Assembly: GCA_024681435.1 (NCBI GenBank)
Contig: JAILAV010000113.1
Location: forward strand, 1 to 33,548
Direction of reading: 5' to 3'
Source: Pseudobutyrivibrio sp.
GTDB lineage: Bacteria > Bacillota > Clostridia > Lachnospirales > Lachnospiraceae
DNA length: 33,548 nt
Positions 1-32,148 of this stretch are shown in pieces. The translations under genes and the position numbers were made by a program. Positions within the stretch are counted from its first letter, which is position 1. Each line of letters begins with the position of its first letter. A model generated the notes under the pieces. That model made no database searches. It saw only the letters and a list, made by a program, of their open reading frames with translations, and had not been told where the DNA came from.

Positions 1-49
1 ATAAATGGCGCTGCTTTCCCGTTTTAATTTAGTTTATGGAGGAATTTTA

Positions 50-451
50 ATGTTTAGTACAAAAGGAAGATACGCACTTCGAGTAATGATAGATTTGGCA
101 CAGCAGGATCCTGAGGAGTTTATTCCACTTAAGGATATAGCTGAAAGACAGGATATTTCAAAGAAGTACTTAGAGATTATAGTTAAGGATTTAGTTCACG
201 GCGGATTCCTTAAGGGCGTCAGCGGTAAAGGTGGTGGCTACCTGCTTACTCGCAAGCCTAATGAATATTCGGTTGGTGAGATTATTGAATTAATGGAAGG
301 AAGTCTTGCACCAGTCGCCTGCTTGACTGACGAGAATATGGAGTGTCCTAGAGAAAATGTTTGTAAGACACTTCCTATGTGGACTGAGTTCTATATGCTT
401 GAAAGAGATTTCTTCTATGGAAAGAAATTAAGCGACTTAATTAATTCTTAA
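50..451 (+). CDS. Rrf2-family transcriptional regulator, probable Fe-S sensor
   Basis: 133-residue winged-helix regulator. The N-terminus MFSTKGRYALRVMIDLA and the following helix-turn-helix (about residues 25-65, with a GKGGGY wing) are typical of the Rrf2/IscR/CymR family. Cys91, Cys99 and Cys105 form a C-x7-C-x5-C group near the position of the three Fe-S ligand cysteines of IscR, so an Fe-S or redox-sensing role is inferred. The start at 50 is chosen because GGAGG at 38-42 lies 7 bases upstream. An in-frame ATG at 5 would add 15 residues unlike the family and has no ribosome site. A strong terminator follows, so the gene is last in its unit or stands alone. It faces the ammonium block tail to tail. 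Target genes cannot be told from the window. Confidence 0.9.
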   Translation: MFSTKGRYALRVMIDLAQQDPEEFIPLKDIAERQDISKKYLEIIVKDLVHGGFLKGVSGKGGGYLLTRKPNEYSVGEIIELMEGSLAPVACLTDENMECPRENVCKTLPMWTEFYMLERDFFYGKKLSDLINS

Positions 452-463
452 ATATAAAAAAAT

Positions 464-495
464 TGCTGGCATCAAATCGATGCCAGCATTTTTTT
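464..495. terminator. Bidirectional intrinsic terminator between rrf2-type gene and amt
   Basis: A 10-bp stem (464-473 with 479-488, core TGCTGGCATC) has a 5-base loop. Seven T follow on the plus strand (489-495) and seven A precede it (456-462), so the hairpin can end transcription in both directions. It closes the Rrf2 gene on plus and the amt gene on minus. Confidence 0.93.
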
Positions 496-506
496 ATGCC
501 AATAGA

Positions 507-2252
507 TTATTCAACATCCTGTAATGCTGCGAAATCTTCTTCGCCAGTTCTGATCTTAACAACCTGCTCTACATCGTAAACGAAAATCTTTCCATCCCCA
601 ATGTGACCTGTGTAAAGAACCTTCTTAGCAGTTTCGATAACCTGCTGTACTGGAACCTTGCAAACTACGACGTCAACACGAATCTTAGGAAGAAGTGCAG
701 GCTCTAAAGCAACACCTCTGTAGTACTCTGGAGCACCCTTCTGAACACCACAACCCATTACGTGTGAAACTGTCATACCTGTGATACCAAGCTTAAGAAG
801 TGCATTCTTAAGTTTCTCAAGGTTACGCTCCTTGCAGAGGATTTCTACCTTTGTCATACGAGGCTTGCCTGCTGCTGTAATCTGTGAAGGTGCGTACTCA
901 ACCTCGATAGCTTCCTCAGGAGTTGCAAGACCTGCTGCCTCAAGAGTTTCTGTAATAAGACTAGCTGTCTCCTCATCATATTCATCTGAATCAAAGTCGT
1001 CATCAAGCATATTAAAGCCAGAGTATGCTGATGGAAGGCCATGCTCAGTTCTATCAAGACCAACGATTTCCTCTTCTGCTGATGCACGAAGACCAATTGT
1101 TGCCTTAATTGCTGAGAATGCAATTGTAATTGTAACTGCTGCCCAAGCACCTACTGTAACTACGCCTAAAAGCTGTATACCTAATAATTTAAAACCGCCC
1201 CCATAGAATAAACCTGCAAGTTCGCTATCTGGAGCGCTTGTTGTAGCAAAGAGACCTACAGCAATTGTTCCCCAGATACCATTCATCATATGTACTGCAA
1301 CTGCTCCAACTGGATCATCAACATGAAGCTTATAATCAAGAAGCCATACACCAAATACTACAAGGAAACCTGAAACAATACCGATAATAATTGCACCAAG
1401 TGCATCTGTTACGTCGCATGGGGCTGTAATAGCTACAAGGCCTGCTAAAGAGGCATTAAGTGACATTGAAACATCTGGCTTACCATACTTAATCCAAGTA
1501 AATGTCATTGTTGTACATGTTGCAACTGCTGGTGCAATTGTTGTTGTAACAAAGATAGAAGCAAGCTGCTCTAAAGATGTAGCTGCTGCACCGTTAAATC
1601 CATACCAACCAAGCCAAAGAATAAATACACCAAGTGCACCAAGTGCGATGTTATGACCAGGGAAAGCGTTAACTTTTGCAATCTTACCGTTCTTATCGTG
1701 GCTAAACTTACCAATACGTGGTCCTAAGATTTTTGCACCGATAAGAGCGCAAATGCCACCAACCATGTGAATTGCACATGAACCAGCAAAATCATGGAAG
1801 CCAATCTGTGCTAACCAGCCGCCACCCCAAATCCAGTGTGCCTCGATTGGGTAAATAACAAGGGAAATAATTCCTGAGTAGATACAATAGCTAATGAACT
1901 TTGTACGTTCAGCCATAGCACCTGAAACGATTGTAGCTGTTGTTGCACAGAACACTAAGTTAAATACAAAGTTACTCCAATCGAAATTAGCGTAGTCAGT
2001 AAAGATACCAAGGGTTGGCTTTCCTACAAGGCCAAATAATGTATCTTCACCTAACATAAGGCTAAAACCTAATAAAATAAACATTACAGTACCAATACAG
2101 AAATCCATTAAGTTTTTCATAATGATATTACCTGTATTCTTTGCTCTGGTAAAACCAGCCTCAACCATGGCAAATCCTGCCTGCATCCAAAATACCAGCG
2201 CCGCTCCAATCAGGAACCAGACACCAAATAGTAAACTTGTGTACTCTTCCAT
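507..2252 (-). CDS. amt: Ammonium transporter fused to a C-terminal P-II (GlnB/GlnK-like) domain
   Basis: 581 residues. Residues 1-390 are an Amt/Rh channel with many membrane segments and the twin pore histidines His162 (CAIHMVGG) and His321 (VAVHMMNG). It conducts ammonium or ammonia across the cytoplasmic membrane. An acidic linker (about 391-465, rich in Asp/Glu) leads to a P-II domain at 466-581 with the signatures TGMTV, QKG, YRG, GDGKIFVYD and RTGEED. In E. coli the channel (AmtB) and its blocker (GlnK) are separate proteins. The T-loop Arg that plugs the pore is kept (Arg512), but the residue at the uridylylated Tyr51 position is Leu516. Start 2252 has AAGGAGG at 2261-2267; a start at 2291 would read through the leader terminator. 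It lies downstream of glnN behind its own attenuator. Confidence 0.95.
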   Translation of the reverse strand: MEEYTSLLFGVWFLIGAALVFWMQAGFAMVEAGFTRAKNTGNIIMKNLMDFCIGTVMFILLGFSLMLGEDTLFGLVGKPTLGIFTDYANFDWSNFVFNLVFCATTATIVSGAMAERTKFISYCIYSGIISLVIYPIEAHWIWGGGWLAQIGFHDFAGSCAIHMVGGICALIGAKILGPRIGKFSHDKNGKIAKVNAFPGHNIALGALGVFILWLGWYGFNGAAATSLEQLASIFVTTTIAPAVATCTTMTFTWIKYGKPDVSMSLNASLAGLVAITAPCDVTDALGAIIIGIVSGFLVVFGVWLLDYKLHVDDPVGAVAVHMMNGIWGTIAVGLFATTSAPDSELAGLFYGGGFKLLGIQLLGVVTVGAWAAVTITIAFSAIKATIGLRASAEEEIVGLDRTEHGLPSAYSGFNMLDDDFDSDEYDEETASLITETLEAAGLATPEEAIEVEYAPSQITAAGKPRMTKVEILCKERNLEKLKNALLKLGITGMTVSHVMGCGVQKGAPEYYRGVALEPALLPKIRVDVVVCKVPVQQVIETAKKVLYTGHIGDGKIFVYDVEQVVKIRTGEEDFAALQDVE

Positions 2253-2277
2253 AATATTTTCCTCCTTGGGTTTTATT

Positions 2278-2328
2278 AAAAAAGCGCACATGAACTAGCT
2301 TTAATCTAGTTCATGCACGCCTTTGTGC
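2278..2328 (-). promoter_or_regulatory. amt leader: AAAGGC hexaloop stem overlapping an intrinsic terminator
   Basis: Read on minus: stem GCAC/GTGC around loop AAAGGC (2328 to 2315). This is mutually exclusive with a 15-bp terminator stem (2320-2306 with 2298-2284, loop 2299-2305, two G-U pairs) followed by TTTTTT (2283-2278). The hexaloop stem can extend by CAT/ATG with one bulged G. The loop has A at position 1 and G at position 4, as in RNA targets of ANTAR antiterminators. The terminator ends 25 bases before the amt start, so default termination would silence amt. No clear promoter was seen between glnN and this element, so it may gate readthrough from glnN. Confidence 0.75.
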
Positions 2329-2352
2329 CATGTAAATATTTTTAAAAACTTG

Positions 2353-4446
2353 TTACTTTACAGAGTAAAGAATCTCTCCATATGTTGGATATGGCCAGAT
2401 ATCACTTGGAACAAGTGTCTCAAGCTCATCAACAACCTCTCTAAGCTCATTCATATCTGCAAAGATTACATCATGGTGGAACTTAGCCAAATCATATGTC
2501 TCAGTAAGCTCTTTACCCTTTTCGATATCGCTTTCAAGCTTCTCAAGTCTCTCATCCATCTTTACAGTAAGCTCTGAAGCCTGCTCTAATCTCTTCTTTT
2601 CTACAGATGAATCAATCTTGATTCCTGTAGCAGCCTTAGCATTTAATGTCTCAGCCAATGTGTACTGATAATCGCTTGCTGCTGCCATGATATTCTTCTT
2701 TACCATAGCATCCATTGTAAGAGCTTCGATATCGATTACCTTGTAGTAATTCTCAAGCTGAATATCGTAACGGCTGTAAAGCTCTTGCTCTGTTAATACT
2801 GAATGCTTTGTAAATACATCGATAGCCTTTTGTGATACGAAAGCTGGAAGTGCATCTACTGTAGACTTAAGATTTGTAAGTCCTCTCTTTTCTGCTTCCT
2901 TAACCCACTCCTCAGAGTATCCATTTCCATTGAAGATGATTCTCTTATGAGCTGTAAGCTCTCTCTTAACAAGCTTCTCAATTGCCTTATCTAAATCCTT
3001 TGCCTTTTCAAGCTCTGTTGCAAACTTATCAAGCTCCTCAGCAACGATTGTGTTCAAGATGATGTTTGGACCAGAAATTGAAGCAGCACTTCCAAGAGAT
3101 CTAAACTCGAACTTGTTACCTGTAAATGCAAATGGTGATGTTCTGTTTCTATCTGTAGTATCCTGTGAAATGCTTGGTACAACAGATGTTCCGATGCTCA
3201 TCTTTTTCTTCTTTACATCTGTGTAATCAGTACCTTCGATGATTGACTCAACGATTGCCTCAAGCTCATCACCGATGAACATTGAGATGATTGCAGGTGG
3301 TGCCTCATTAGCTCCAAGTCTGTGATCATTTCCTGCAGAAGCAACTGATACTCGGAGTAAATCCTGATACTCATCAACAGCCTTAATAACAGCTGTTAAG
3401 AATAATAAGAACTGGGTGTTTTGGGAAGGAGTCGCACCTGGTTCTAATAGGTTTACTCCTGTATCAGTTGATATAGACCAGTTGTTGTGCTTACCTGAAC
3501 CGTTAACACCAGCAAATGGCTTCTCATGCAACAAGCAAGTCATGCCATGGCGTTTTGCAACGACTTTCATTATTTCCATTGTAAGCTGATTGTGATCTGT
3601 GGCTATATTAGTGGTTGAGAAAATTGGTGCAAGCTCATGCTGTGCAGGAGCAACTTCATTATGCTTAGTCTTAGCTAAGATTCCAAGTTTCCACAACTCC
3701 TCGTCTAACTCTTTCATGTAGGCCGATACTCTTGGCTTGATTGTTCCAAAGTAGTGATCATCAAGCTCCTGGCCCTTTGGAGGCTTTGCTCCGAATAATG
3801 TACGACCTGTGTAAATTAAATCAGGTCTCTTGTTGAACATTTCTGAATCAATTAAGAAATATTCCTGCTCTGGTCCAACTGTTGTGATAACTCTCTTCAC
3901 ATCATCATGACCAAATAACTTTAATACTCTTACTGCCTGTTTATCGAGAGCTTCCATTGAACGAAGAAGTGGAGTCTTCTTATCAAGTGCCTCTCCTGAA
4001 TATGAACAAAATGCTGTTGGAATGCAAAGTGTATCATCTTTTACAAATACTGGGCTTGTTGGGTCCCATGCTGTATAACCTCTAGCCTCAAATGTAGCTC
4101 TAAGACCACCTGAAGGGAATGAAGAAGCATCAGGCTCGCCCTTTACTAATTCCTTGCCAGAAAATGTCATAATTACTTTTCCATTTCCATCTGGCTGAAT
4201 AAATGAATCATGCTTCTCTGCTGTAACACCTGTCATTGGCTGGAACCAATGTGTGAAGTGTGTAGCGCCAAGTTCAATTGCCCATTCCTTCATAGCATGT
4301 GCAATCACATTAGCCAAATCTCTATCAAGGGGCTTGCCCTCTTCGATTGTGTGTCTAAGTGCCTTGTACGCATCCTTTGGAAGACGTTCCTTCATAGTCT
4401 CATCATTAAAAACTTTGCTTCCAAATATTTCTGTAACCTTGCTCAT
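2353..4446 (-). CDS. glnN: Type III glutamine synthetase
   Basis: 697 residues, the long GSIII form found in Bacteroides, rumen anaerobes and some clostridia, against about 450-470 for GSI. It joins ammonia to glutamate with ATP to make glutamine in the cytoplasm. Visible family blocks: [34 protein letters not shown] and [16 protein letters not shown], the metal- and substrate-binding core. Start 4446 has AGGAGG upstream. It follows asnB by 79 bases with no terminator, so asnB-glnN co-transcription is likely, and it precedes amt. This layout puts uptake and the main assimilation enzyme next to each other. Confidence 0.97.
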
Positions 4447-4466
4447 AATTTATCCTCCTTTAGTCC

Positions 4467-4492
4467 GGCTGTTACGCTCTCAAGCTACAGCC
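4467..4492 (-). promoter_or_regulatory. Hairpin in the asnB-glnN gap
   Basis: On minus, GGCTGT (4492-4487) pairs with ACAGCC (4472-4467). An inner GCT/AGC stem with loop TGAG sits inside. It ends a few bases before the glnN ribosome site and has no T-run, so it is not a terminator. It may be an mRNA processing or stability element, or a translational control hairpin. It does not carry the AAAGGC loop of the other nitrogen leaders. Confidence 0.45.
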
Positions 4493-4525
4493 TCACTTAA
4501 TTAACTATTTGTCACTTTACGATGA

Positions 4526-6112
4526 CTATACCCCTGAGGCACCGTAGTTCGATAGCACGCGGGCTGATGGGTCGTTTACGTTGCAGCCTGGCCAGTTTTT
4601 GTTTGGCATCCAGAAATCTACAATCATTTCAGCCTGGCCTGGATAGTACTTTTCAAATAGGTCTCTATATAGAAGTGACTCTTTTGTAAATGGTGTTCTG
4701 TACTCGTATTTCTCTGCTGCCTTCTCAAGGTCTTCGTCGGAATATATCGTATTTGCGTATTCCTTAAGGTAATAAACCATGGAATGACCTACCGCATCGG
4801 AAAATGCTGCCTTTTCTCTGAAGAGAATGTCATAAGGTAAATAATCATCTCCCTCGAATGCATGTCGCAGTAAGTATTTTCCTTTGTTGTACTTATTCAT
4901 CTTTATTTCAGGATTTATGCTCATTACATAATCCACGAAATCTAAATCTCCAAATGGAACTCTTGCTTCCATTGAGTGAACTGAGATACATCTGTCTGCT
5001 CTAAGTACGTCGTACATATAAAGCTCTCTCAGCCTCTTCTCTGCCTCAAGCTGAAACTCTTCAGCGTTTGGCGCAAAGTCTGTATATTTATAACCGAAAA
5101 TCTCATCTGAAATCTCACCAGTAAGAAGTACTCTCACCTCTGGGAACTGCTTTTTTATTCCTTTGCAAATCAGGTACATTCCCATGCTGGCTCTAATTGT
5201 TGTAATGTCGTATGTTCCAAGGGAAGCTACAACCTCTTCTAGTGATTCTAAAACGATGTCCTTGTCGATGATGATTTCGTGATGCTCAGAACCGATATAA
5301 TCTGCAACCTCTTTTGCATATTTAAGATCGATGGCATCTTCGTTCATGCCGATTGCAAATGTCTTAATTGGCTTATCCATCATCTTCTGTGCTATGGCAC
5401 ATACAAGTGATGAGTCAAGTCCTCCTGAAAGAAGAAATCCTACTGGAGCATCTGCATCAAGTCTCTTCTCAACACCAGCTACTAGAAGCTCTTTGATTTT
5501 TGCTGAAGCAGCTTCAACATCATCTTTGCTGTAAGGCTGTCTTGCTGACAAATCTCTGTAGCAGATGAACTGTCCATCCTTGTAATAATGTCCTGGTGGG
5601 AATGGCTTTACCTCGTCTGTAAGACCAATAAGGTTCTTGGCTTCTGATGCAAACATTATTGAACCTTCACTATCGTATCCGTAGAACAGAGGTCTAATTC
5701 CGATTGGATCTCTTGCAGCAATCAAATCATCTGAATCCTTGTCGTAGATAACCATTGCATATTCCGCATCAAGCTTTGCGAACATTTCCACTCCGTATTT
5801 ACGATACATTGGTAAGATTATTTCGCAATCACTGTCGCTTAAGAATTTGTATCCGTCTTTTTTTAACTCTTCTCTTACTGGTTTGAATCCATACAACTCT
5901 CCGTTGCAGATTACATAATTGCCATCTAACTCAAAGGGCTGCATACCTGCTTCTGTCAAACCCATAATTGATAATCTTTGGAATCCTAGGACCGAATCGT
6001 TAATGCGTATCACCTTTTGCATATCTGGTCCTCTTGACACTGTTTTAGAAAATGCCGCTTCGAAGTCCTTCATTTCGACATGGCATTTACTTAAAGCCAT
6101 TATTGAACACAT
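4526..6112 (-). CDS. asnB: Asparagine synthetase (glutamine-hydrolysing)
   Basis: 528 residues from the start MCSIM. Cys2 becomes the N-terminal nucleophile of the class II glutaminase domain once Met is removed (RGPD at 27-30, NGELYG at 70-75). The synthetase domain has the ATP-binding PP-loop SGGLDSS at 229-235. It makes asparagine from aspartate, glutamine and ATP. The reading frame stays open back to 6193, but those 27 extra residues (Arg-rich) translate the leader terminator and would bury the nucleophile. GGAAGGTGG upstream of 6112 also supports the shorter start. It sits between gltBD and glnN, consistent with coordinated use of glutamine. Confidence 0.95.
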   Translation of the reverse strand: MCSIMALSKCHVEMKDFEAAFSKTVSRGPDMQKVIRINDSVLGFQRLSIMGLTEAGMQPFELDGNYVICNGELYGFKPVREELKKDGYKFLSDSDCEIILPMYRKYGVEMFAKLDAEYAMVIYDKDSDDLIAARDPIGIRPLFYGYDSEGSIMFASEAKNLIGLTDEVKPFPPGHYYKDGQFICYRDLSARQPYSKDDVEAASAKIKELLVAGVEKRLDADAPVGFLLSGGLDSSLVCAIAQKMMDKPIKTFAIGMNEDAIDLKYAKEVADYIGSEHHEIIIDKDIVLESLEEVVASLGTYDITTIRASMGMYLICKGIKKQFPEVRVLLTGEISDEIFGYKYTDFAPNAEEFQLEAEKRLRELYMYDVLRADRCISVHSMEARVPFGDLDFVDYVMSINPEIKMNKYNKGKYLLRHAFEGDDYLPYDILFREKAAFSDAVGHSMVYYLKEYANTIYSDEDLEKAAEKYEYRTPFTKESLLYRDLFEKYYPGQAEMIVDFWMPNKNWPGCNVNDPSARVLSNYGASGV

Positions 6113-6136
6113 AAAACCACCTTCCCAGTATAGAAC

Positions 6137-6188
6137 AAAAAAAGCGCCGTAAACGTAGTTGGTTCTACGTTTACGACGCCTTTGTCGT
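6137..6188 (-). promoter_or_regulatory. asnB leader: AAAGGC hexaloop stem overlapping an intrinsic terminator
   Basis: On minus, ACGAC/GTCGT (6188-6184 with 6177-6173) closes the loop AAAGGC (6183-6178). The same bases are the 5' foot of a terminator: CGTAAACGTAG pairs with CTACGTTTACG around a 6-base loop, the foot AAAGGCG meets CGC plus T's, and seven T follow (6143-6137). The outer two stem pairs differ from the amt and gltB copies but remain paired, so the small stem is supported by compensatory change. The terminator lies 24 bases before the asnB start. Inferred role: nitrogen-responsive antitermination of asnB and perhaps glnN. Confidence 0.78.
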
Positions 6189-6213
6189 TCCATTGATTTT
6201 TTTATTGATTTGA

Positions 6214-6242
6214 ATAATAAAACTTTGACAATTCGTTGTCAA
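6214..6242 (-). promoter_or_regulatory. asnB promoter with a palindrome over the -35 box
   Basis: On minus, TTGACA (6242-6237), a 17-base spacer and TATTAT (6219-6214) give a near-consensus vegetative promoter. The start of transcription should be near 6207, giving a leader of about 95 bases that holds the attenuator. The -35 box lies in the inverted repeat TTGACAA-CGAA-TTGTCAA (6225-6242), a possible repressor site. Confidence 0.75.
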
Positions 6243-6268
6243 TAACTTTTTTGAATTTTTTTGTTACA

Positions 6269-6333
6269 CTAACAATCCTGAGATACTCTTTCCATCACTA
6301 ATGTGATTGTTCAGAGTACTCAGAGATTGTTAG
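6269..6333 (-). repeat. Long imperfect inverted repeat after gltD
   Basis: Arms 6269-6289 and 6313-6333 pair over 20 bp with two single-base bulges. The loop holds a smaller hairpin (ATCAC/GTGAT). It starts 14 bases after the gltD stop. On minus it is followed by an A-run and not a T-run, so it is not a classical intrinsic terminator. It may still define the gltBD mRNA 3' end or be a protein site. The asnB promoter begins about 27 bases further on. Confidence 0.6.
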
Positions 6334-6346
6334 CTACAAAAAAATA

Positions 6347-7843
6347 CTACAAGTTTGAATATCCCATCAAGTATTCATCTACCTCGCGGGCACAGTCACG
6401 GCCCTGGCGAATAGCCTTAACTACAAGAGATTGACCAGTGTGCATATCTCCTGCAGTAAATACTTTCTTTACGTTTGTTGCAAAAGAATTTGCACTTGCA
6501 GATGCCACATTTGTGCGACCATCCACTTCAACCTTAAATGCTTTTGTAACATAATCCTGAGCGCCGAGGAAACCTGCTGCAATAAGGCATAGCTGGCATG
6601 GTACTTCTTTTTCTGTGCCTTCAACAGGTACCATCATCTTGCGTCCTGTTTTCTTATCCACCTGTGATTCAAGAGATACAAGAACAACTGACTTAAGCTC
6701 GCCCTTTTTGTCAGTCTTGAATTCCTTTACAGTTGTTGTGTAGATGCGTGGATCATGACCAAATTTAGCAATAGCCTCTTCCTGACCATAGTCTGTCTTG
6801 CACACTAGTGGCCACTGTGGCCATGGATTAGACTCAGCTCTCACATCTGGAGCCTTTGGCATCATCTCAAGCTGTGTCACAGACTTACAGCCATGACGAA
6901 TAGCTGTACCAACACAGTCATTTCCAGTATCACCACCGCCGATGATAATTACATCCTTGCCCTTAGCGGAGATATACTGACCGTCCACAAGCTGCATGTC
7001 ATTAGCCCATAGACATTTTGTTGTGGATGTAAGGAAATCTACAGCAAAATAGATTCCTTTTGCCTCCTTACGTCCTGTAGCTGCAATATCCCTAGGATTA
7101 GATGAGCCACAGCAAAGAATTACAGCATCATACTTTGCCACGATGTCACTTGCCTTAACATCCTCACCTACATTGGCATTTACGATAAAGCTTACTCCCT
7201 CCTGCTCCATTATCTTTATCTTACGGTCGATAATCTGCTTTTCAAGCTTCATGTTTGGAATTCCATAGCGAAGTAATCCACCAACCTTGTCATTGCGCTC
7301 GTATACAGTGACACTGTGACCACGTCTGTTAAGCTGATCTGCAACAGCAAGACCCGCAGGGCCTGAACCAATTACAGCTACATTCTTGCCAGTGCGAACC
7401 TTTGGTGGCTTAGCATCAGCCAGACCATTGGCATATGCGTACTCGATAATAGCCATCTCATTTTCCTTTGTAGAGACAGCATCACCATTAAGGCCACAGG
7501 TGCATGCCTTCTCACAAAGAGCTGGACATACTCTGCAGGTAAACTCAGGGAAATTGCTGGTCTTATGAAGACGTCTATATGCCATCTCATAATTTCCCTG
7601 ATATACTAAATCATTCCACTCAGGAATCAGGTTGTTAAGAGGACAGCCTGAAGTCATCCCCTTAATTGTCATACCTGCCTGGCAAAATGGAACACCGCAC
7701 TCCATGCAGCGAGCAGCCTGTTTCTGCTGCTCCTCCTTTGGAAGTGGTGTGTGAAATTCATTAAAATTCTTGATTCGCTGAAGAGGACTTACTGCAGAAG
7801 CCTCTTTACGCTCATATTCTAAAAATCCTGTTGGCTTTCCCAT
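6347..7843 (-). CDS. gltD: Glutamate synthase (NADPH) small subunit
   Basis: 498 residues. The N-terminal Fe-S domain has cysteine clusters (ARCMECGVPFCQAG, then CRVCPALCEKAC at about 100). Two nucleotide-binding folds follow: VIGSGPAGLAVADQL (FAD) and VIIIGGGDTGNDC (NADPH). It feeds electrons from NADPH to GltB. Start 7843 is chosen because AGGAGG (7855-7850) overlaps the gltB stop codon and lies 6 bases upstream, giving translational coupling. A start at 7882 would overlap gltB and add residues unlike the family. It forms the gltBD operon. Confidence 0.96.
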   Translation of the reverse strand: MGKPTGFLEYERKEASAVSPLQRIKNFNEFHTPLPKEEQQKQAARCMECGVPFCQAGMTIKGMTSGCPLNNLIPEWNDLVYQGNYEMAYRRLHKTSNFPEFTCRVCPALCEKACTCGLNGDAVSTKENEMAIIEYAYANGLADAKPPKVRTGKNVAVIGSGPAGLAVADQLNRRGHSVTVYERNDKVGGLLRYGIPNMKLEKQIIDRKIKIMEQEGVSFIVNANVGEDVKASDIVAKYDAVILCCGSSNPRDIAATGRKEAKGIYFAVDFLTSTTKCLWANDMQLVDGQYISAKGKDVIIIGGGDTGNDCVGTAIRHGCKSVTQLEMMPKAPDVRAESNPWPQWPLVCKTDYGQEEAIAKFGHDPRIYTTTVKEFKTDKKGELKSVVLVSLESQVDKKTGRKMMVPVEGTEKEVPCQLCLIAAGFLGAQDYVTKAFKVEVDGRTNVASASANSFATNVKKVFTAGDMHTGQSLVVKAIRQGRDCAREVDEYLMGYSNL

Positions 7844-7853
7844 GATAATCCTC

Positions 7854-10800
7854 CTATCTGCACAGTAAATTAAAGGCTTCAATTTGTGCCTGCTCTGATG
7901 ACAATCCTTTTTCCTCCATTTGGACGATAGTCTGCATCATTTTCTTGTAATCAAATGGCACAATTCTCTTGAACTTAGGAAGGTATTCGCTGAAGTTTTC
8001 ATATACTTCCTTACCCTTTACAGAACCTGTTGCCTTAACATGCTCTTTGATAATTTCCTTAAGTTCTAATACGTCATATTTATCTGTTACAGTCTCCAGG
8101 CTTACCATGGACTTATTTAATCTCTTGTAAAGTGTTGCATCCTCATCGAGAACGTATGCAATACCGCCTGACATACCTGCTGCAAAGTTCTTTCCTGTTG
8201 TACCAAGAACAACAACACGACCACCTGTCATGTACTCGCAGCCGTGATCACCACAACCTTCTACCACTGCTGTTGCTCCGGAATTACGAACTGCAAATCT
8301 CTCACCTGCAACACCATTGATAAATGCCTTACCACTTGTAGCACCATAAAGTGCAACGTTACCGATGATGATGTTCTCATCCTGTTTGTATGTAGCATCC
8401 TTAGATGGATAAACGATAAGCTTTCCACCTGAGAGACCTTTACCAAAGTAGTCATTAGAATCACCTTCAAGCTCCAGAGTAAGTCCTTTAGGAATAAATG
8501 CACCAAAGGACTGTCCGCCTGCGCCATGGCAATTTACCTTGTATGTGTCCTCGTCAAGACTTTCGCCGAAGTGACGAGTAAGCTCTGCTCCAAGTAAAGT
8601 TCCAAGGCTTCGGTCAACATTTGAAATATCTACATTCACTTCGCCTGACTTGCCTGATTTAATAGCTGTCCCCAGTTTCTTAAGAAGAACTTTCTCATCC
8701 ACAGTTTTCTCCAACTCGAAATTAAATACGTTCTTGTTTTCGTAAGAAATCTTCTCACCCTCAAATGGGTTATTAAGAACTGCAGACATATCAACTTTGC
8801 CGTAAGCACCGTTCTTGCAGTTATCCTTAACCTTAAGTAAGTCTGTACGTCCACATAACTCATCAACAGTCTTGCAGCCAAGCTTAGCCATGTATTCACG
8901 AAGTTCCTGAGCGATGAATCTCATAAAGTTTACGATATATTCAGGCTTTCCTGCAAAACGTTTTCTAAGCTCTGGGTTTTGTGTAGCCACACCAACTGGA
9001 CATGTATCAAGATTACATACACGCATCATTACGCAGCCCATAGTTACAAGTGGAGCTGTTGCAAAACCAAATTCCTCTGCACCAAGTGCACAGGCGATGG
9101 CAACATCACGACCACTCATAAGCTTACCATCTGTTTCAATCACAACTTTATTTCTAAGACCATTCATCATAAGAGTCTGATGAGCCTCAGCAAGACCAAG
9201 TTCCCATGGAAGACCTGCATTGTGGATAGATGACTTTGGAGCTGCACCTGTACCACCATCGTATCCTGAAATAAGAATTACCTGAGCACCTGCCTTGGCT
9301 ACACCTGATGCGATGGTTCCAACACCTGCCTCAGATACAAGCTTTACAGAAATACGGGCATCCTTATTTGCATTTTTCAAATCATAAATAAGCTCAGCCA
9401 AATCCTCGATTGAGTATATATCGTGATGAGGTGGTGGAGAAATAAGAGCTACACCAGGAGTGGAAAGACGAGTCTTTGCAATCCATGGATATACCTTCTT
9501 TCCTGGAAGATGTCCACCTTCACCAGGCTTAGCACCTTGAGCCATCTTAATCTGGATTTCCTTGGCACTTACAAGATATTTGCTTGTAACACCAAATCTA
9601 CCTGATGCCACCTGCTTGATTGCAGAGCAGCGGTTTAATCCATCTGGACCAATCTCGTATCTATCATCTTCCTCACCACCTTCACCGGAATTTGACTTTC
9701 CGCGAAGCTGATTCATGGCAATGGCCATAGTTTCGTGAGCTTCCTTTGAAATAGAACCGTAGCTCATAGCACCAGTCTTAAATCTCTTTACGATAGAATC
9801 TACTGATTCTACCTCATCAATACTAATTGCTTTCTTAGGATAATTGAAATCAATAAGACCACGAAGATTTCTGATATTATCCTCCTCATTTACTAAGCTA
9901 GTATACTCCTTAAATGTATTGTAATCTCCTGTTCTGGTTGATAGCTGAAGGAGATGGATTGTAGCTGGGTTGTAGAGATGTTCCTCTGCTCCAGCGCGCA
10001 TCTTGTGCTGGCCCCTTGAATCAAGAGTCTCATCTACATCAAGCTCAAGTGGATCGAATGCATGTGAATGCTGCATATCAACCTGCTCTTGAATATCTTT
10101 GAGAGTAATACCTCCGATTCTGCTGATAGTTCCAGTAAAGTATTTGTCGATTACATCTGAGCTGATTCCGATAGCTTCGAAAATCTTAGCACCCTGATAT
10201 GACTGCACAGTAGAAATACCCATTTTTGATGCAATCTTTACAATTCCGCTGATTACAGCCTCATTGTATGCATCAATGGCTGCATGGGCATCCTTTTTGA
10301 GCTGGCCCTTTTCGATAAGCTCAACAATAGTTTCCTGTGCAAGATATGGGTTGATTGCAGACGCACCATAACCTAGAAGTGTTGCAAAGTGATGCACTTC
10401 TCTTGGCTCACCTGATTCAAGAATCACAGAAAGACTTGTACGCTTCTTTGTCTGAACCAAATGTCTTTGAACTGCTGCGACAGCAAGAAGTGATGGAATT
10501 GCCACGTGATTCTCATCCACACCTCTATCTGAAAGGATGATGATATTTGCACCCTCTCTATTAACTCTATCTACCTCTACGAAAAGATGCTCGATAGCTT
10601 TTTCCAAAGAAGTATTCTTATAGTATACGATTGGCACAGTTTCAGCCTTTAGTCCTGGAACCTTCATAGACTTAATCTTCATCAAGTCTGTTGTGGTTAG
10701 GATTGGATTGTTAATCTGGAGCATGTTGCAGTTTTCTTCCTTTTCCTCAAGGACGTTTCCTGCTGTTCCAAGATAAATAGTAGTGGCTGTAACAATCTCC

Positions 10801-12386
10801 TCACGAATAGAATCGATAGGTGGATTTGTAACCTGTGCAAATAACTGCTTAAAGTAATTAAATAGTGGCTGATGATGCTTTGACAAAACTGCAAGAGGCA
10901 CATCGATACCCATAGCTCCAGTATTCTCCCCGCCGTTTAAAGCCATAGGAAGGATTGAATCCTTAATCTCTTCGTATGAATATCCGAAAGCCTTCTGTAA
11001 TCTATCACGCTCCGCCTGTGTGTATACAGGAACAGATTCATTAGGAATCTTGATATCTGCGAGATGGGCAAGATTTGCATCAAGCCACTGACCATATGGC
11101 TGGCGTGTTGCATAAGTAGCCTTTAGTTCATCATCTGCAATAAGACGTCCTTCTACTGTATCAACAAGGAGCATCTTACCAGGTTTTAATCTATCCTTAG
11201 CCTTGATTCTGCTTTCTGCAATAGGAAGTACACCTACTTCAGAAGAAAGAATAAGGTAATCATCATTTGTAATATAGTATCTTGATGGACGAAGACCGTT
11301 TCTATCAAGAACGGCACCCATAATATCACCATCAGAAAACAGTATAGAAGCCGGACCATCCCATGGCTCCATCATTGTTGAATAATACTGATAGAAGTCA
11401 CGACGTGCTTGCTCCATGGCCTTGTTCTTTACCCATGGCTCTGGAATTGTAATCATTACTGCAAGAGGAAGTGGCATTCCATTCATTACTAAAAATTCAA
11501 GGGCATTATCCAACATTGCTGAATCTGAACCAGCCTGATTACAAACAGGTGTGATTTTTGTCATTTCTGACTCAAGAACCTGTGAAACCATTGTCTCTTC
11601 ACGGGAAAGCATCTTATCCGCATTACCCTTGATTGTATTAATCTCACCATTATGAACGATGAAACGGTTTGGATGAGCTCGCTCCCATGATGGATTTGTA
11701 TTAGTTGAGAATCTTGAGTGAACAGTTGCTATTGCTGACTCATAATCCTCGTCCTGCAAATCTTCAAAGAATAATCTAAGCTGATCTACCAAAAACATAC
11801 CTTTATATACGATAGTTCTACTTGAAAGTGATGCCACATATGTATCTTCAGCAGTTTGTTCAAATACACGTCTAGCAACATAGAGCTTTCTATCAAAGTC
11901 TAACCCTGTATTGCAGCCTAAAGGCTTTTTAATAAAGCCCTGACAAATACAAGGCATACACTCTACTGCCAGTTTACCTAAAATCTCTGCCTTAGTAGGT
12001 ACTTCTCTCCAGCCTAAAAACTCTAGGCCTTCTTTTTCGGCGATGATTTCGAACATCTTCATTGCCTGTTTTCTCTTTAACTCATCCTGAGGAAAGAAAA
12101 ACATACCAATACCGTATTCTCTCTCATCACCAATTGCTATACCAAGTGACTTACATGTTTTCTTAAAAAACTTGTGTGAAATCTGAAGTAAAATACCAAC
12201 ACCATCACCTGTCTCGCCTGTTGCATCTTTACCGGCTCTGTGCTCAAGATTTTCTACAATCTTTAAGGCGTCTGACACGATCTGATGAGTCTTGATTCCC
12301 TTAATAGAAACCACTGCACCGATTCCACAATTGTCGTGTTCAAAGGCAGGATTGTATAATCCCATCTGCTGATTGTCGTTATCCAT
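7854..12386 (-). CDS. gltB: Glutamate synthase large subunit
   Basis: 1510 residues, full length. Cys20 follows a 19-residue propeptide (GLYNPAFEHDN/CGIGAV) and should become the N-terminal glutaminase nucleophile after cleavage. The glutaminase domain is followed by a central domain, then an FMN-binding synthase domain (SGEGGEEDDRY, GAKPGEGGHLPG, SGYDGGTGAAPKSS). The 3Fe-4S ligands are Cys1118, Cys1124 and Cys1129 in a C-x5-C-x4-C motif ending CPVGVATQ, and a C-terminal GXGXG beta-helix closes the protein. It converts glutamine plus 2-oxoglutarate to two glutamate together with GltD. The GGAAGGAG ribosome site lies upstream. It has its own promoter and attenuator. Confidence 0.97.
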   Translation of the reverse strand: MDNDNQQMGLYNPAFEHDNCGIGAVVSIKGIKTHQIVSDALKIVENLEHRAGKDATGETGDGVGILLQISHKFFKKTCKSLGIAIGDEREYGIGMFFFPQDELKRKQAMKMFEIIAEKEGLEFLGWREVPTKAEILGKLAVECMPCICQGFIKKPLGCNTGLDFDRKLYVARRVFEQTAEDTYVASLSSRTIVYKGMFLVDQLRLFFEDLQDEDYESAIATVHSRFSTNTNPSWERAHPNRFIVHNGEINTIKGNADKMLSREETMVSQVLESEMTKITPVCNQAGSDSAMLDNALEFLVMNGMPLPLAVMITIPEPWVKNKAMEQARRDFYQYYSTMMEPWDGPASILFSDGDIMGAVLDRNGLRPSRYYITNDDYLILSSEVGVLPIAESRIKAKDRLKPGKMLLVDTVEGRLIADDELKATYATRQPYGQWLDANLAHLADIKIPNESVPVYTQAERDRLQKAFGYSYEEIKDSILPMALNGGENTGAMGIDVPLAVLSKHHQPLFNYFKQLFAQVTNPPIDSIREEIVTATTIYLGTAGNVLEEKEENCNMLQINNPILTTTDLMKIKSMKVPGLKAETVPIVYYKNTSLEKAIEHLFVEVDRVNREGANIIILSDRGVDENHVAIPSLLAVAAVQRHLVQTKKRTSLSVILESGEPREVHHFATLLGYGASAINPYLAQETIVELIEKGQLKKDAHAAIDAYNEAVISGIVKIASKMGISTVQSYQGAKIFEAIGISSDVIDKYFTGTISRIGGITLKDIQEQVDMQHSHAFDPLELDVDETLDSRGQHKMRAGAEEHLYNPATIHLLQLSTRTGDYNTFKEYTSLVNEEDNIRNLRGLIDFNYPKKAISIDEVESVDSIVKRFKTGAMSYGSISKEAHETMAIAMNQLRGKSNSGEGGEEDDRYEIGPDGLNRCSAIKQVASGRFGVTSKYLVSAKEIQIKMAQGAKPGEGGHLPGKKVYPWIAKTRLSTPGVALISPPPHHDIYSIEDLAELIYDLKNANKDARISVKLVSEAGVGTIASGVAKAGAQVILISGYDGGTGAAPKSSIHNAGLPWELGLAEAHQTLMMNGLRNKVVIETDGKLMSGRDVAIACALGAEEFGFATAPLVTMGCVMMRVCNLDTCPVGVATQNPELRKRFAGKPEYIVNFMRFIAQELREYMAKLGCKTVDELCGRTDLLKVKDNCKNGAYGKVDMSAVLNNPFEGEKISYENKNVFNFELEKTVDEKVLLKKLGTAIKSGKSGEVNVDISNVDRSLGTLLGAELTRHFGESLDEDTYKVNCHGAGGQSFGAFIPKGLTLELEGDSNDYFGKGLSGGKLIVYPSKDATYKQDENIIIGNVALYGATSGKAFINGVAGERFAVRNSGATAVVEGCGDHGCEYMTGGRVVVLGTTGKNFAAGMSGGIAYVLDEDATLYKRLNKSMVSLETVTDKYDVLELKEIIKEHVKATGSVKGKEVYENFSEYLPKFKRIVPFDYKKMMQTIVQMEEKGLSSEQAQIEAFNLLCR

Positions 12387-12417
12387 TCTCGCTACTCCTT
12401 CCCATTATGTACTGCAT

Positions 12418-12477
12418 AAAAAAGAAAGGCGCCTAAAGAAACTCCCACTATAGGAATTTCTTTAGACGCCTTTGTCT
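12418..12477 (-). promoter_or_regulatory. gltB leader: AAAGGC hexaloop stem overlapping an intrinsic terminator
   Basis: On minus, AGAC/GTCT (12477-12474 with 12467-12464) closes the loop AAAGGC (12473-12468). The competing terminator pairs 12473-12457 with 12441-12425 over 17 bp (one G-U) and ends in CTTTTTT (T-run 12423-12418). It is the strongest of the three leader terminators. The predicted transcript start is only 2-3 bases before the hexaloop stem, so there is no room for a second upstream hexaloop. Inferred role: antitermination control of gltBD. Confidence 0.8.
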
Positions 12478-12485
12478 TGTGCAAA

Positions 12486-12514
12486 ACTATACAACTTTTA
12501 GTATTTTTATGCAA
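12486..12514 (-). promoter_or_regulatory. gltBD promoter
   Basis: On minus, TTGCAT (12514-12509), a 17-base spacer and TATAGT (12491-12486). It begins 19 bases after the stop of the xylosidase gene. Transcription should start near 12479-12480, directly at the foot of the attenuator. Confidence 0.78.
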
Positions 12515-12532
12515 GAATTAATTTAAGTAAAT

Positions 12533-14527
12533 TCAATATAACATTTCTTTTGCTGCCTCTTTAGTTGCAAATGGACCTGGAATTACATTAAGTTCTCTAT
12601 GATTTCCAAGATAATCTACGTTAAATGTTATTGGTGTTCCGTCTGGATTTTCAAAGCTCTGCTGAGGCTCGAATGCTTTTCCGAGACTATCAGTATTAAT
12701 CATATCTCCTTTGAAATCACCTAAGACTTCATATATGTTTGTATCAAGGAAATATTTGCCATCCTTTTCAACCAAATCAACATGAACCTTTCCTGAATTA
12801 TCTGTAAAAACATTCTTCTCTTTTTTCCAGCATTTAGCTCCTTCAAAATATGCATTACCATCAATCCATACAGGAAGATGTGAAAAATGAAATGGATCAT
12901 GTTTCATCATATTAGGATGCTCTTCTTCCATATCAAACTGTGGCAGCCATTCATCATAGGTTGGATACTCGTCAAAGCAATCTGTTCCAACCTTTCTATT
13001 CTCAACATACTCTTTGTCTGGCTGAGAATCACTTAAAAGAACCAAATCTTCTGATGACCATTTTTGAATAAATATGTTGTTGTAGATTCGGTCGTCTCCA
13101 TGGAGGATAGTCATAAATCCCATAACCTCAGTTCTGTGAGGCATGTGATATGGAGTATATCTCCAGGTGGTACCTTCTCCAACCATTGTAAATGAACCAG
13201 CACAGAGATTGTGCACCATTGCCACGCCCTGAGTTGCTATACGAAGCGAAACATCAGATAACAATACATTATTATCTATAAGTGTTGGGCCGTGACTTAC
13301 CTCAACAAATATATCCTGGCAGGTCATTCCACCTTCAAGTTGTTTTGCATATTCAGGTCTTAGATTATCATGAAGAAGGTTCTGAGTAATTCTTGTACCT
13401 TGAGCTTCCCAGTCACACCAAATTCCCATAGTACAATGATGTATGTGATTTCTTCTCATAACTACATCAATTGCTGCATGCATTTTTATACCAGCAATCT
13501 CAGCACCACCTAATTCCATCATATTATTGATATGATGAATGTGATTGTCTTCTATAATACTGAAGACTCCGCCCATACGCCCTATAATTCCACCTTGCTC
13601 GCAGTGGTGAATATTGTTTCGGCGGATAATATGTCCACCAATCTTTTCCTTGAGCCAGCCATAGTACTGACCGCGGCAGACAGAGTCTCTCTCCATCTGA
13701 GTTGGACTCTTCACATGCTTAGTAGTATAGAAGTTACTGTTTTCAGGGTCATAGTATCTGCCCACACAAATTCCTGCACATTTACTTCCCCAAATCTCGC
13801 AATCCTCTATTATCCATCCCTTACTCCAATGTGGGCTTATCATTCCATCCTGATATGCAGCTGGTGGAGCCCATGTAGTAGCTGATTTATTAATATTGAA
13901 ACCACTAACTGTGATGTAGCCTACGCCTTCCTTTTCAGGCATAAAGCACTCACGTCTAACTGTGATTTCAACATTTTCTTTATTAGGATCAGCACCACCA
14001 AAATTTGCATAGAATACTGTTTCATCTGTATCAGTATCCTGCTTTGCATACCATTTTTGCTTGGAACTTTCCGGGTCCCAAGAGCAGTCGTATACCTTAG
14101 CTTCTATGCACTCTTCGATACTAAGTGCCTCATATAATGCCTTATCATTTATCCAAACACAGCCTGTATGTTTGTTTGGTGTGGCAAAATACCAGTCCCC
14201 ATAAACCAAAGTTGTATACGGATTATAACCAGCAAAAACACTGTTCTTTACCCTAGCTGTCCACACATCCCCCTTATACTGTGTCCAGCCTGTAATTTTC
14301 TCGGCGCCAGTAATTACTGCCCCTAGTGGCTTCTCACTTTTATATACTATTCTTTTATCCTCTGTACCAGCATTGACTGGATTTACGTACTCTCTATATA
14401 CACCAGGAGCTACTATTATTTCGTCACCAGGAAGGGCAATCTTAGCTGCCTCATTAATCCTTTTAAATGGCAATTCTTTTGTGCCATTGCCATCATGTTT
14501 TGAGTTTATATCAACGTAAATATTCAT
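12533..14527 (-). CDS. Probable beta-xylosidase, GH120-like parallel beta-helix protein
   Basis: 664 residues with no signal peptide, so cytoplasmic. The N-terminus (YVDINSKHDGNGTKELPF, GDEIIVAPGVYREYV) and the repeated RNNIHHC/DNHIHHI/RNHIHHC turns mark a right-handed beta-helix. From memory it resembles GH120 xylosidase XylC of Thermoanaerobacterium along most of its length, including WIIED, AGIKxHAAIDV, WEAQGTR and FVEVSHGP. The catalytic pair of that family is present: Asp372 (CDWEAQG) as nucleophile and Glu409 (FVEVSHG) as acid/base. It should cut xylose from imported xylo-oligosaccharides. It is the last gene of the transporter operon, 32 bases after the permease, and no terminator follows before the gltB promoter. 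A different beta-helix glycosidase specificity remains possible. Confidence 0.8.
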   Translation of the reverse strand: MNIYVDINSKHDGNGTKELPFKRINEAAKIALPGDEIIVAPGVYREYVNPVNAGTEDKRIVYKSEKPLGAVITGAEKITGWTQYKGDVWTARVKNSVFAGYNPYTTLVYGDWYFATPNKHTGCVWINDKALYEALSIEECIEAKVYDCSWDPESSKQKWYAKQDTDTDETVFYANFGGADPNKENVEITVRRECFMPEKEGVGYITVSGFNINKSATTWAPPAAYQDGMISPHWSKGWIIEDCEIWGSKCAGICVGRYYDPENSNFYTTKHVKSPTQMERDSVCRGQYYGWLKEKIGGHIIRRNNIHHCEQGGIIGRMGGVFSIIEDNHIHHINNMMELGGAEIAGIKMHAAIDVVMRRNHIHHCTMGIWCDWEAQGTRITQNLLHDNLRPEYAKQLEGGMTCQDIFVEVSHGPTLIDNNVLLSDVSLRIATQGVAMVHNLCAGSFTMVGEGTTWRYTPYHMPHRTEVMGFMTILHGDDRIYNNIFIQKWSSEDLVLLSDSQPDKEYVENRKVGTDCFDEYPTYDEWLPQFDMEEEHPNMMKHDPFHFSHLPVWIDGNAYFEGAKCWKKEKNVFTDNSGKVHVDLVEKDGKYFLDTNIYEVLGDFKGDMINTDSLGKAFEPQQSFENPDGTPITFNVDYLGNHRELNVIPGPFATKEAAKEMLY

Positions 14528-32112: not shown

Positions 32113-32148
32113 GCAAAAGGCGCCCTTCATTTCGAAGGGCGTCTTTGC
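32113..32148 (-). terminator. Hairpin after the chemotaxis receptor gene
   Basis: CGCCCTTC pairs with GAAGGGCG (32134-32141 with 32121-32128, loop 32129-32133), extended past one mismatch by AAA/TTT and GC. The T-tract is only four and partly paired, so termination may be incomplete. It begins 17 bases after the receptor stop codon. Confidence 0.6.

Follow-up and report, generated by a model that had tools for sequence, protein, structure and literature searches.

Single-hexaloop leaders of nitrogen genes in Pseudobutyrivibrio and its relatives as probable targets of a NitR-type ANTAR protein

The DNA analyzed here, a stretch of 33,548 nucleotides (nt) from Pseudobutyrivibrio sp. (assembly GCA_024681435.1, contig JAILAV010000113.1; the whole stretch is called the window in the following), carries on its minus strand gltB and gltD for glutamate synthase (GOGAT), asnB, glnN and a fused amt-PII gene, and the leaders of gltB, asnB and amt all contain the same small hairpin. 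This raises the question whether these nitrogen transcripts are controlled by one common RNA switch, and which factor would read it. We regard it as highly probable that the elements are transcription attenuators read by the sole ANTAR protein of the genome, a regulator of the NitR type which is encoded behind glnA. Both the control of nitrogen genes by ANTAR proteins (PMC3369931) and NitR (PMC6316151) are already published. The new part is a variant of this control, namely a single hexaloop, often located near the transcript start, and a receiver-like regulator without the phosphorylation site.

In each of the three leaders, the loop AAAGGC is closed by a short stem whose letters differ from leader to leader (Table 1). 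AAAGGC occurs 26 times in the window when both strands are counted, and stems of at least four pairs are found in the three leader copies only, the remaining 23 copies having 0-2 stem pairs. Each hexaloop lies at the foot of an intrinsic terminator, and in the folds of each leader the hairpin and the terminator have the loop and the 3' half of the small stem in common, while the 5' half of this stem lies outside the terminator; the two folds are thus mutually exclusive. Isolated hexaloop hairpins reach -2.3 (gltB), -4.8 (asnB) and -3.8 kcal/mol (amt), and because a hairpin of only -2 to -5 kcal/mol competes with a terminator of -25 to -33 kcal/mol, the terminator is favoured unaided. A preliminary description of this DNA, made from its letters, had proposed the three hairpins, the covariation of their stems and the exclusion of the two folds, and all of this stands, sequences and places included. 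It had described the asnB leader too narrowly: the stem comprises 5 base pairs (bp), and the leader is probably longer than 6137-6188, since the transcript is predicted to start near 6207 (an estimate, ~7 nt after the -10 element).

Table 1. Features of the three nitrogen transcripts in the window.
Feature	Position	Strand	Basis
gltB promoter-like pair TTGCAT - 17 nt - TATAGT	12486..12514	-	read from sequence; 8/12 consensus letters
gltB hexaloop hairpin AGAC-AAAGGC-GTCT, loop 12473-12468, proposed NitR site/antiterminator	12464..12477	-	sequence, stem count, fold
gltB leader intrinsic terminator, stem 12473-12425, -33.0 kcal/mol, then U tract	12418..12473	-	fold; terminator-model match E 1.2e-5
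gltB, glutamate synthase large subunit, 1510 aa	7854..12386	-	
gltD, glutamate synthase small subunit, 511 aa	6347..7882	-	
asnB promoter TTGACA - 17 nt - TATTAT	6214..6242	-	11/12 consensus letters
asnB hexaloop hairpin ACGAC-AAAGGC-GTCGT, loop 6183-6178	6173..6188	-	sequence, stem count, fold
asnB leader intrinsic terminator, -26.8 kcal/mol	6137..6183	-	fold; terminator-model match E 1.0e-6
asnB, glutamine-hydrolysing asparagine synthase, 527 aa	4526..6109	-	
GlnN, glutamine synthetase type III, 697 aa	2353..4446	-	Pfam GSIII_N E 4.8e-84
amt hexaloop hairpin GCAC-AAAGGC-GTGC, loop 2324-2319	2315..2328	-	sequence, stem count, fold
amt leader intrinsic terminator, -25.5 kcal/mol	2278..2324	-	fold; terminator-model match E 2.6e-6
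Amt-PII fusion (ammonium transporter 10-405 + P-II 465-575), 580 aa	507..2249	-	

The loop and the 3' half of the stem belong to the terminator foot, and their conservation alone therefore proves nothing; the small stem could be a by-product of ordinary terminators whose foot reads AAAGGCG, with neither a separate hairpin nor a binding protein involved. A first covariance model (R1) included the hexaloop pairs and was left out of the tests, and a second model with terminator pairs only (R2) was used instead. From the listed matches up to E ~5.5e-4, 77 in 51 genomes were chosen before any stems were inspected, with other families and genes not yet met taken first. Counted from the loop, hexaloop pairs 1-6 are formed in 76, 75, 75, 72, 43 and 25 of these 77 matches, slid registers give no comparable run of pairs, and the stem comprises at least 4 bp in 70 and at least 3 bp in 74 of them. 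Since R2 does not contain the stem pairs and the stem is nonetheless present in 70/77 matches, the 4-bp stem is kept by compensation. The 5' half lies outside the terminator and yet covaries, the variable positions still being paired in 75/77 and 72/77 matches of a model that is blind to the stem. Similar terminators without a hexaloop stem do exist, among them three weaker R2 matches in the source genome itself. Stems shorter than 3 bp were found in two of 74 matches from genomes with an ANTAR gene (defined throughout as a match to PF03861) and in six of nine inspected matches from six genomes without it, including G076, G110, G095 and G083 (ten of 33 ANTAR-less relatives were re-examined, and nine of 11 places inspected). 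We therefore rejected plain terminators as a general explanation, on the covariation of the outer stem half, and consider the by-product very improbable.

Alignment gives a covariation of 0.641 as compared to 0.185 in shuffles, with none of 500 shuffles as high; alignments A2 and A3 were partly chosen for stems of at least 4 bp and for A at loop position 1 and G at position 4 (A1/G4), and 0.641 therefore overstates the covariation. Cleaner tests are provided by the stems of the R2 matches, by a pattern search, by amt loci not selected for the element and by a letter count at NitR loci. The pattern, consisting of ACAAAGGCGT and a GCGC-T tail without fixing the outer pairs, was found at 15 places in 10 of 145 relatives' genomes (one match repeats the context of another), and 14 of these places have a stem that reaches 4 bp, the remaining one having 3 bp, which again speaks against a by-product. 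The reversed ACAAAGGCGT/GCGC-T pattern had no match in the 145 genomes.

An Amt protein search of 61 genomes, 44 of them matching, provided 30 loci for examination. Among these loci, which were chosen by Amt alone, 22 carry an A1/G4 hexaloop on a terminator at most ~240 nt upstream, and the loops vary at the other positions (AAAGGC, AACGGC, AATGGG, AAAGGG, AAAGAG, AATGAG, AATGGA), such changes being partly matched by changes in the far terminator arm. The terminator of one amt locus (L102) bears only a hexaloop of another kind, and at some loci additional hexaloops occur that lie in a different register or belong to a different hairpin. The letter count covered the surroundings of 47 named NitR genes (from Pseudobutyrivibrio, Butyrivibrio fibrisolvens 16/4, Roseburia, Cellulosilyticum and others). 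Hexaloops closed by C-G, with a 4-bp stem and located on terminators, have the letters A1/G4 in 84 cases there, as compared to 3-15 cases for each of the other 15 letter pairs at positions 1 and 4; when A or T is required at position 2 as well, at least one element is present at 37 of the 47 loci. Loop letters in R2 matches are not evidence, because R2 itself favours A1/G4. Of the pairs adjoining the loop, A-U is found in 65/77 and C-G in 76/77 R2 matches. Taken together, the pattern, amt-locus and R2 searches uncover further leaders of this kind before nitrogen genes of relatives, and the covariation seen in the window persists there, both as the preliminary description had anticipated. Separately, alignment A3 shows a U-G wobble in 27/39 rows where the U of the hexaloop stem takes part in the terminator (columns 14 and 50), as if terminators were kept slightly weak where the hexaloop competes.

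The source genome (G000; 2.23 Mb, 81% complete) encodes one protein with the ANTAR domain (PF03861, E 1.1e-14), 190 aa in length, and its gene is located directly behind glnA; domain and gene position are those of the NitR type. Terminator model R2, applied to this genome with E up to 0.5, gives 11 places, eight of which have the hexaloop. In addition to the three AAAGGC elements before gltB, asnB-glnN and amt-PII, these are found before glnA-nitR itself (loop ATGGGC), before a substrate-binding protein nearest to the branched-chain amino-acid kind (below the cut-off of that model), before a tyramine-oxidase-B/ornithine-cyclodeaminase-like gene, before a Peptidase C26/class-I amidotransferase (AATGGC) and before a solute-binding protein taken for polyamine-binding (AATGGC). 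The other three places have stems of 0 or 1 pairs, and two of them are one hairpin seen from both strands.

Across genomes, the element and the ANTAR gene go together. R2 (E up to 0.05) matches 93 of 145 relatives, that is, 89/112 of those having PF03861 and 4/33 of those without it. Outside the organism's own family, matches occur in 17/28 genomes with the ANTAR gene and in 2/27 without (p 4e-5), and in a draw from the whole phylum (E up to 0.005), in 26/126 and 1/123, respectively (p 1e-7); these p values ignore kinship among the genomes. The preliminary description had predicted an ANTAR gene in genomes that carry the element, and the gene by glnA in the source genome and its tracking of the element across relatives bear this out.

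It is conceivable that the attenuator is read by a different factor, such as a small ligand, a small RNA or an RNA-binding protein of another kind, since three stemmed elements are found in genomes in which no ANTAR gene was detected, namely G027 and G094 (77% and 80% complete) and G423 (98% complete; stem of 5 bp, the sole exception in the phylum draw). The association with PF03861 at three taxonomic depths, the linkage to glnA-nitR and the A1/G4 letters, which emerge unasked in the amt and NitR loci, argue against such a reader. A hairpin of 14-16 nt is, furthermore, small for a ligand pocket. The window has no Rfam match at gathering score, and positions 1-13000 give sub-threshold matches only, which were taken for chance; a known riboswitch or leader family was rejected on these grounds. 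We therefore consider a non-ANTAR reader unlikely, and that the leaders are ANTAR targets can be inferred with good support.

How the elements relate to known ANTAR targets is a further question, as the ANTAR motif, which is tied to nitrogen genes, has been defined as two hairpins (PMC3369931; Ramesh et al. 2012), a dual-hexaloop definition also found in PMC8164766. The elements resemble the Enterococcus faecalis eut leaders and the Desulfotomaculum nitrogen regulons described in PMC3369931 in their A1/G4 hexaloop, short stem (at least 3 bp), A-U and C-G loop-adjacent pairs and terminator overlap, in the presence of an ANTAR gene in the genome, and, as regards the nitrogen regulons, in the genes themselves, including glutamate synthase, ammonium transporters and P-II. 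For the eutP leader of E. faecalis, induction was abolished when these A-U and C-G pairs were changed in hairpin P1 (PMC3369931). The difference lies in the number of hairpins and in their position, since the leaders described here have one hairpin, which in 38/74 of those examined (about half) lies close to where the transcript is predicted to begin, and the upstream hexaloop of the dual definition was not found. EutV requires both hairpins in vivo (PMC3369931). A later EutV study observed binding to each hairpin alone, put the minimal binding site at one hexaloop, allowed for single-hexaloop targets and urged more work on them (PMC8934654; Walshe et al. 2022). In the antitermination model of the same study, the upstream hairpin recruits the dimer and both hairpins are obligatory in vivo; it is this recruiting hairpin which was not found in the leaders analyzed here.

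The leaders might thus be classical dual targets whose upstream hexaloop is too degenerate for the scan, which demands a 6-nt loop, A1, G4 and a 4-bp stem, and the published definitions favour this view (PMC3369931, PMC8164766). No second hexaloop was found upstream in the three window leaders. Among the 74 Lachnospirales elements that remain when the three R2 matches with stems below 3 bp are set aside, the strict scan found no upstream partner (0/74), as compared to 6/25 matches of the same model in other families; of the 32 places outside the source genome in the phylum draw, 28 were examined and 25 used here, three being left out because they belong to the same family (two) or the same class (one). 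A loose A1/G4 scan gave 4/45 and 6/74 elements, no commoner than other letters (mean 8.9 for the 74). As a control, a similar scan detected dual hexaloops on terminators, in the same order, in two of six wider eut regions. The first set of eut loci, 20 short stretches around eutB, contained a single candidate but not a dual hexaloop. On these scans and their positive controls, a hidden upstream hexaloop was rejected.

Promoter positions bear on the same point. Those with at least 10/12 consensus letters have the end of their -10 element 0-34 nt ahead of the stem in 38/74 leaders, mostly at 10-19 nt, and beyond 40 nt from the stem only 0-2 such promoters fall into each 10-nt bin. If transcription starts ~7 nt after the -10 element, the 27/74 leaders with a -10 end less than 20 nt ahead of the stem have no room for a second hairpin. 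Among the window leaders, the -10 end lies 8 nt ahead of the stem for the gltB promoter-like pair, and TTGCAT or TTGCAA - 17 - TATAGT recurs in the same position in three relatives (G026, G027, G028); for asnB, it lies 25 nt ahead of the 5-bp stem. The remaining leaders, including that of amt behind glnN and perhaps that of asnB, may have some upstream RNA, and the absence of a second hexaloop is scan-based there. Overall, we judge a degenerate dual target to be quite unlikely. What emerges is a large natural set of single-hexaloop elements, eight in one genome and with matches in dozens of relatives, in which a second hairpin was not found and often has no room, and which makes the capture of nascent RNA by an ANTAR dimer directly testable. 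No report of single-hexaloop antiterminators or of ANTAR targets in Lachnospiraceae was found in a search that had most subscription literature, including Stutz et al. 2007, outside its reach.

The closeness to the predicted start in many leaders would also suit a 5'-terminal hairpin that shields the transcript from decay, or a DNA operator located just past the start. The window hairpins merely reach -2 to -5 kcal/mol, however, and the amt element is found 25 nt past the glnN stop with a weak promoter-like pair (8/12 letters). Such functions would also leave the terminator overlap unexplained, and an operator need not covary as pairs. There is accordingly very little to be said for either, and reading of the elements by an ANTAR protein is preferred.

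The properties of this protein suggest how it might be controlled. NitR can be aligned end to end with an EutV-like protein, and the predicted model of a relative (81% identical to NitR of the source genome) has a receiver-like alternation of strands and helices together with one long and two short helices. The best solved chains for a NitR profile are 1s8n and 6wsh, which we take to be Rv1626 and EutV, AmiR, and the nitrate regulatory protein 4akk (NasR). The phospho-acceptor Asp is replaced by Asn in all 47 named NitR loci and in the source genome, and against Pfam Response_reg the protein scores 28.0 bits, below the cut-off of 30.2 and thus outside the canonical phospho-Asp receivers. The regulator hence appears receiver-like and not phosphorylatable at the usual site, and since it lacks the phospho-acceptor, it probably responds to a partner protein or a ligand rather than to a kinase. 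The EutV residues reported to contact RNA (PMC8934654) were mapped via alignment to the locus L064 and by spacing. Met172 of EutV (the Met plug) is kept in 46/46 named NitR proteins which reach that position, one protein being cut short, and the positions of Lys143 and Lys147 are occupied by Lys or Arg throughout the 23 aligned proteins of the Asn type. Related regulators are known to be coupled to other proteins: AmiR, whose receiver is a pseudo-receiver, responds to a partner protein (PMC8934654), and NasT is released by NasS. In comparison with AmiR, NasT and NasR, which have a pseudo-receiver or are coupled to a sensor, the neighbour of NitR in the source genome is glnA. In Clostridium saccharobutylicum, nitR is presumably also located by glnA. 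NitR of this species is reported to induce GS/GOGAT genes (GS, glutamine synthetase) upon nitrogen limitation (PMC6316151, citing Stutz et al. 2007).

Several observations weigh against the elements being attenuators read by NitR. Seven of the 77 R2 matches have stems below 4 bp, three of them below 3 bp; eight of the 30 amt loci are without a close upstream element, although two of these have one further up (loops ATAGGC and AAAGAG); 10 of the 47 NitR loci have no element in the stretch examined; and 23 of the 112 ANTAR-bearing relatives have no R2 match. The three genomes named above with stemmed elements and no ANTAR gene detected belong to the same side, as do two differences at the protein level, Tyr164 of EutV being His in 46/46 named NitR proteins and Arg142 being replaced in each of the 23 aligned proteins of the Asn type (by Leu, Met, Ile, Val or Gln). 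Deletion of the second hairpin abolished EutV binding to one construct (PMC3369931). Finally, single hexaloops are also found where the sole ANTAR protein keeps both Asp and Tyr164 (G307, G450, G522). The single hexaloop and the NitR subclass are therefore not the same thing, and a rule equating single hexaloops with Asn receivers was rejected as not exclusive. The places concerned (L298, L326 (G522), L310 (G307), L316 (G450)) lie in a distant family, carry single hexaloops on terminators and provide a contrast to NitR.

For binding by NitR, antitermination, the direction of control and the signal, we infer the following course of events. In many leaders, RNA polymerase would start a few bases upstream, so that the single A1/G4 hexaloop hairpin is made first. 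Active NitR, when bound to this hairpin, would keep the loop and the 3' half from the terminator, and the operon would be transcribed; without NitR, the far stronger terminator would fold and transcription would end. Unlike in published ANTAR targets, no upstream recruitment hairpin would be used. One signal could in this way jointly set GOGAT, AsnB-GlnN, Amt-PII, GlnA-NitR and some uptake and amine genes, with the regulon presumably switched on under nitrogen or glutamine shortage. More tentatively, and with considerable doubt, it can be proposed that the Lachnospirales operate a global nitrogen/glutamine regulon by a reduced form of the ANTAR mechanism, via one hexaloop at or near the 5' end of the transcript. 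NitR would need neither phosphorylation nor a recruitment hairpin, and would sense glutamine by direct contact with another protein, the most likely one being its neighbour glutamine synthetase (or else the Amt-PII fusion). If this were true, the system would parallel, at the RNA level, TnrA of Bacillus, which is held by glutamine synthetase, and the regulon of relatives would also include the glutamine-spending CTP synthase, PurF, CarA, NadE, AsnB and GOGAT.

The genomic surroundings of the elements illustrate the extent of this candidate regulon. glnA is located within the stretch examined in 46/47 named NitR loci, the contig of the last one (L291) beginning just before nitR. Several relatives have the order gltB gltD [element] asnB glnN [element] amt-PII [element] glnA nitR, and others have glnA-nitR between gltD and asnB, with elements before gltB, asnB and often amt-PII; the elements stay at operon starts as the gene order shuffles. 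A usable downstream frame was available for 71 of the 74 elements with stems of at least 3 bp, and Pfam assigns these proteins, in raw counts, to glutamine synthetase (11), GOGAT-type class II amidotransferase (10), asparagine synthase (7), ammonium transporter (5), CTP synthase (4), ABC permease (4), P-II (3), family-3 binding protein (3), RidA-like (3) and NifH (2). Individually tested downstream proteins fit PurF (amidotransferase and phosphoribosyltransferase domains), CarA and NadE, and glutamine-consuming enzymes are recurrent downstream of the elements. This offers a nitrogen regulon for common gut and rumen bacteria, to which the synthesis of CTP, purines, NAD and asparagine would be tied in some relatives.

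Some observations at individual loci are added here. Elements lie ahead of nifH-like genes (Pfam Fer4_NifH) at L180 (G114) and L183 (G109), and nitrogen fixation may be included in some relatives; at L185 (G136) and L204 (G114), they lie ahead of chemotaxis proteins with an MCP signalling domain, which is odd for a nitrogen regulon. In the window, a single 580-aa frame encodes both Amt and P-II, and this fusion may be relevant to the nitrogen signal. A further AAAGGCG hairpin at window position 32116 on the plus strand (AAAGGCGCCCTTCATTTCGAAGGGCGTCTTT) has no hexaloop stem, looks plain and can be used as a negative example. A 91-nt palindrome located between gltD and the asnB promoter (6255-6345, minus strand) folds at -40.1 kcal/mol (shuffles -14.3, z -8.4). 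It begins with a U-run (5' end) and finishes with an A-run (3' end), so that neither strand has a downstream U-run, and it may represent a small mobile palindrome instead of a terminator.

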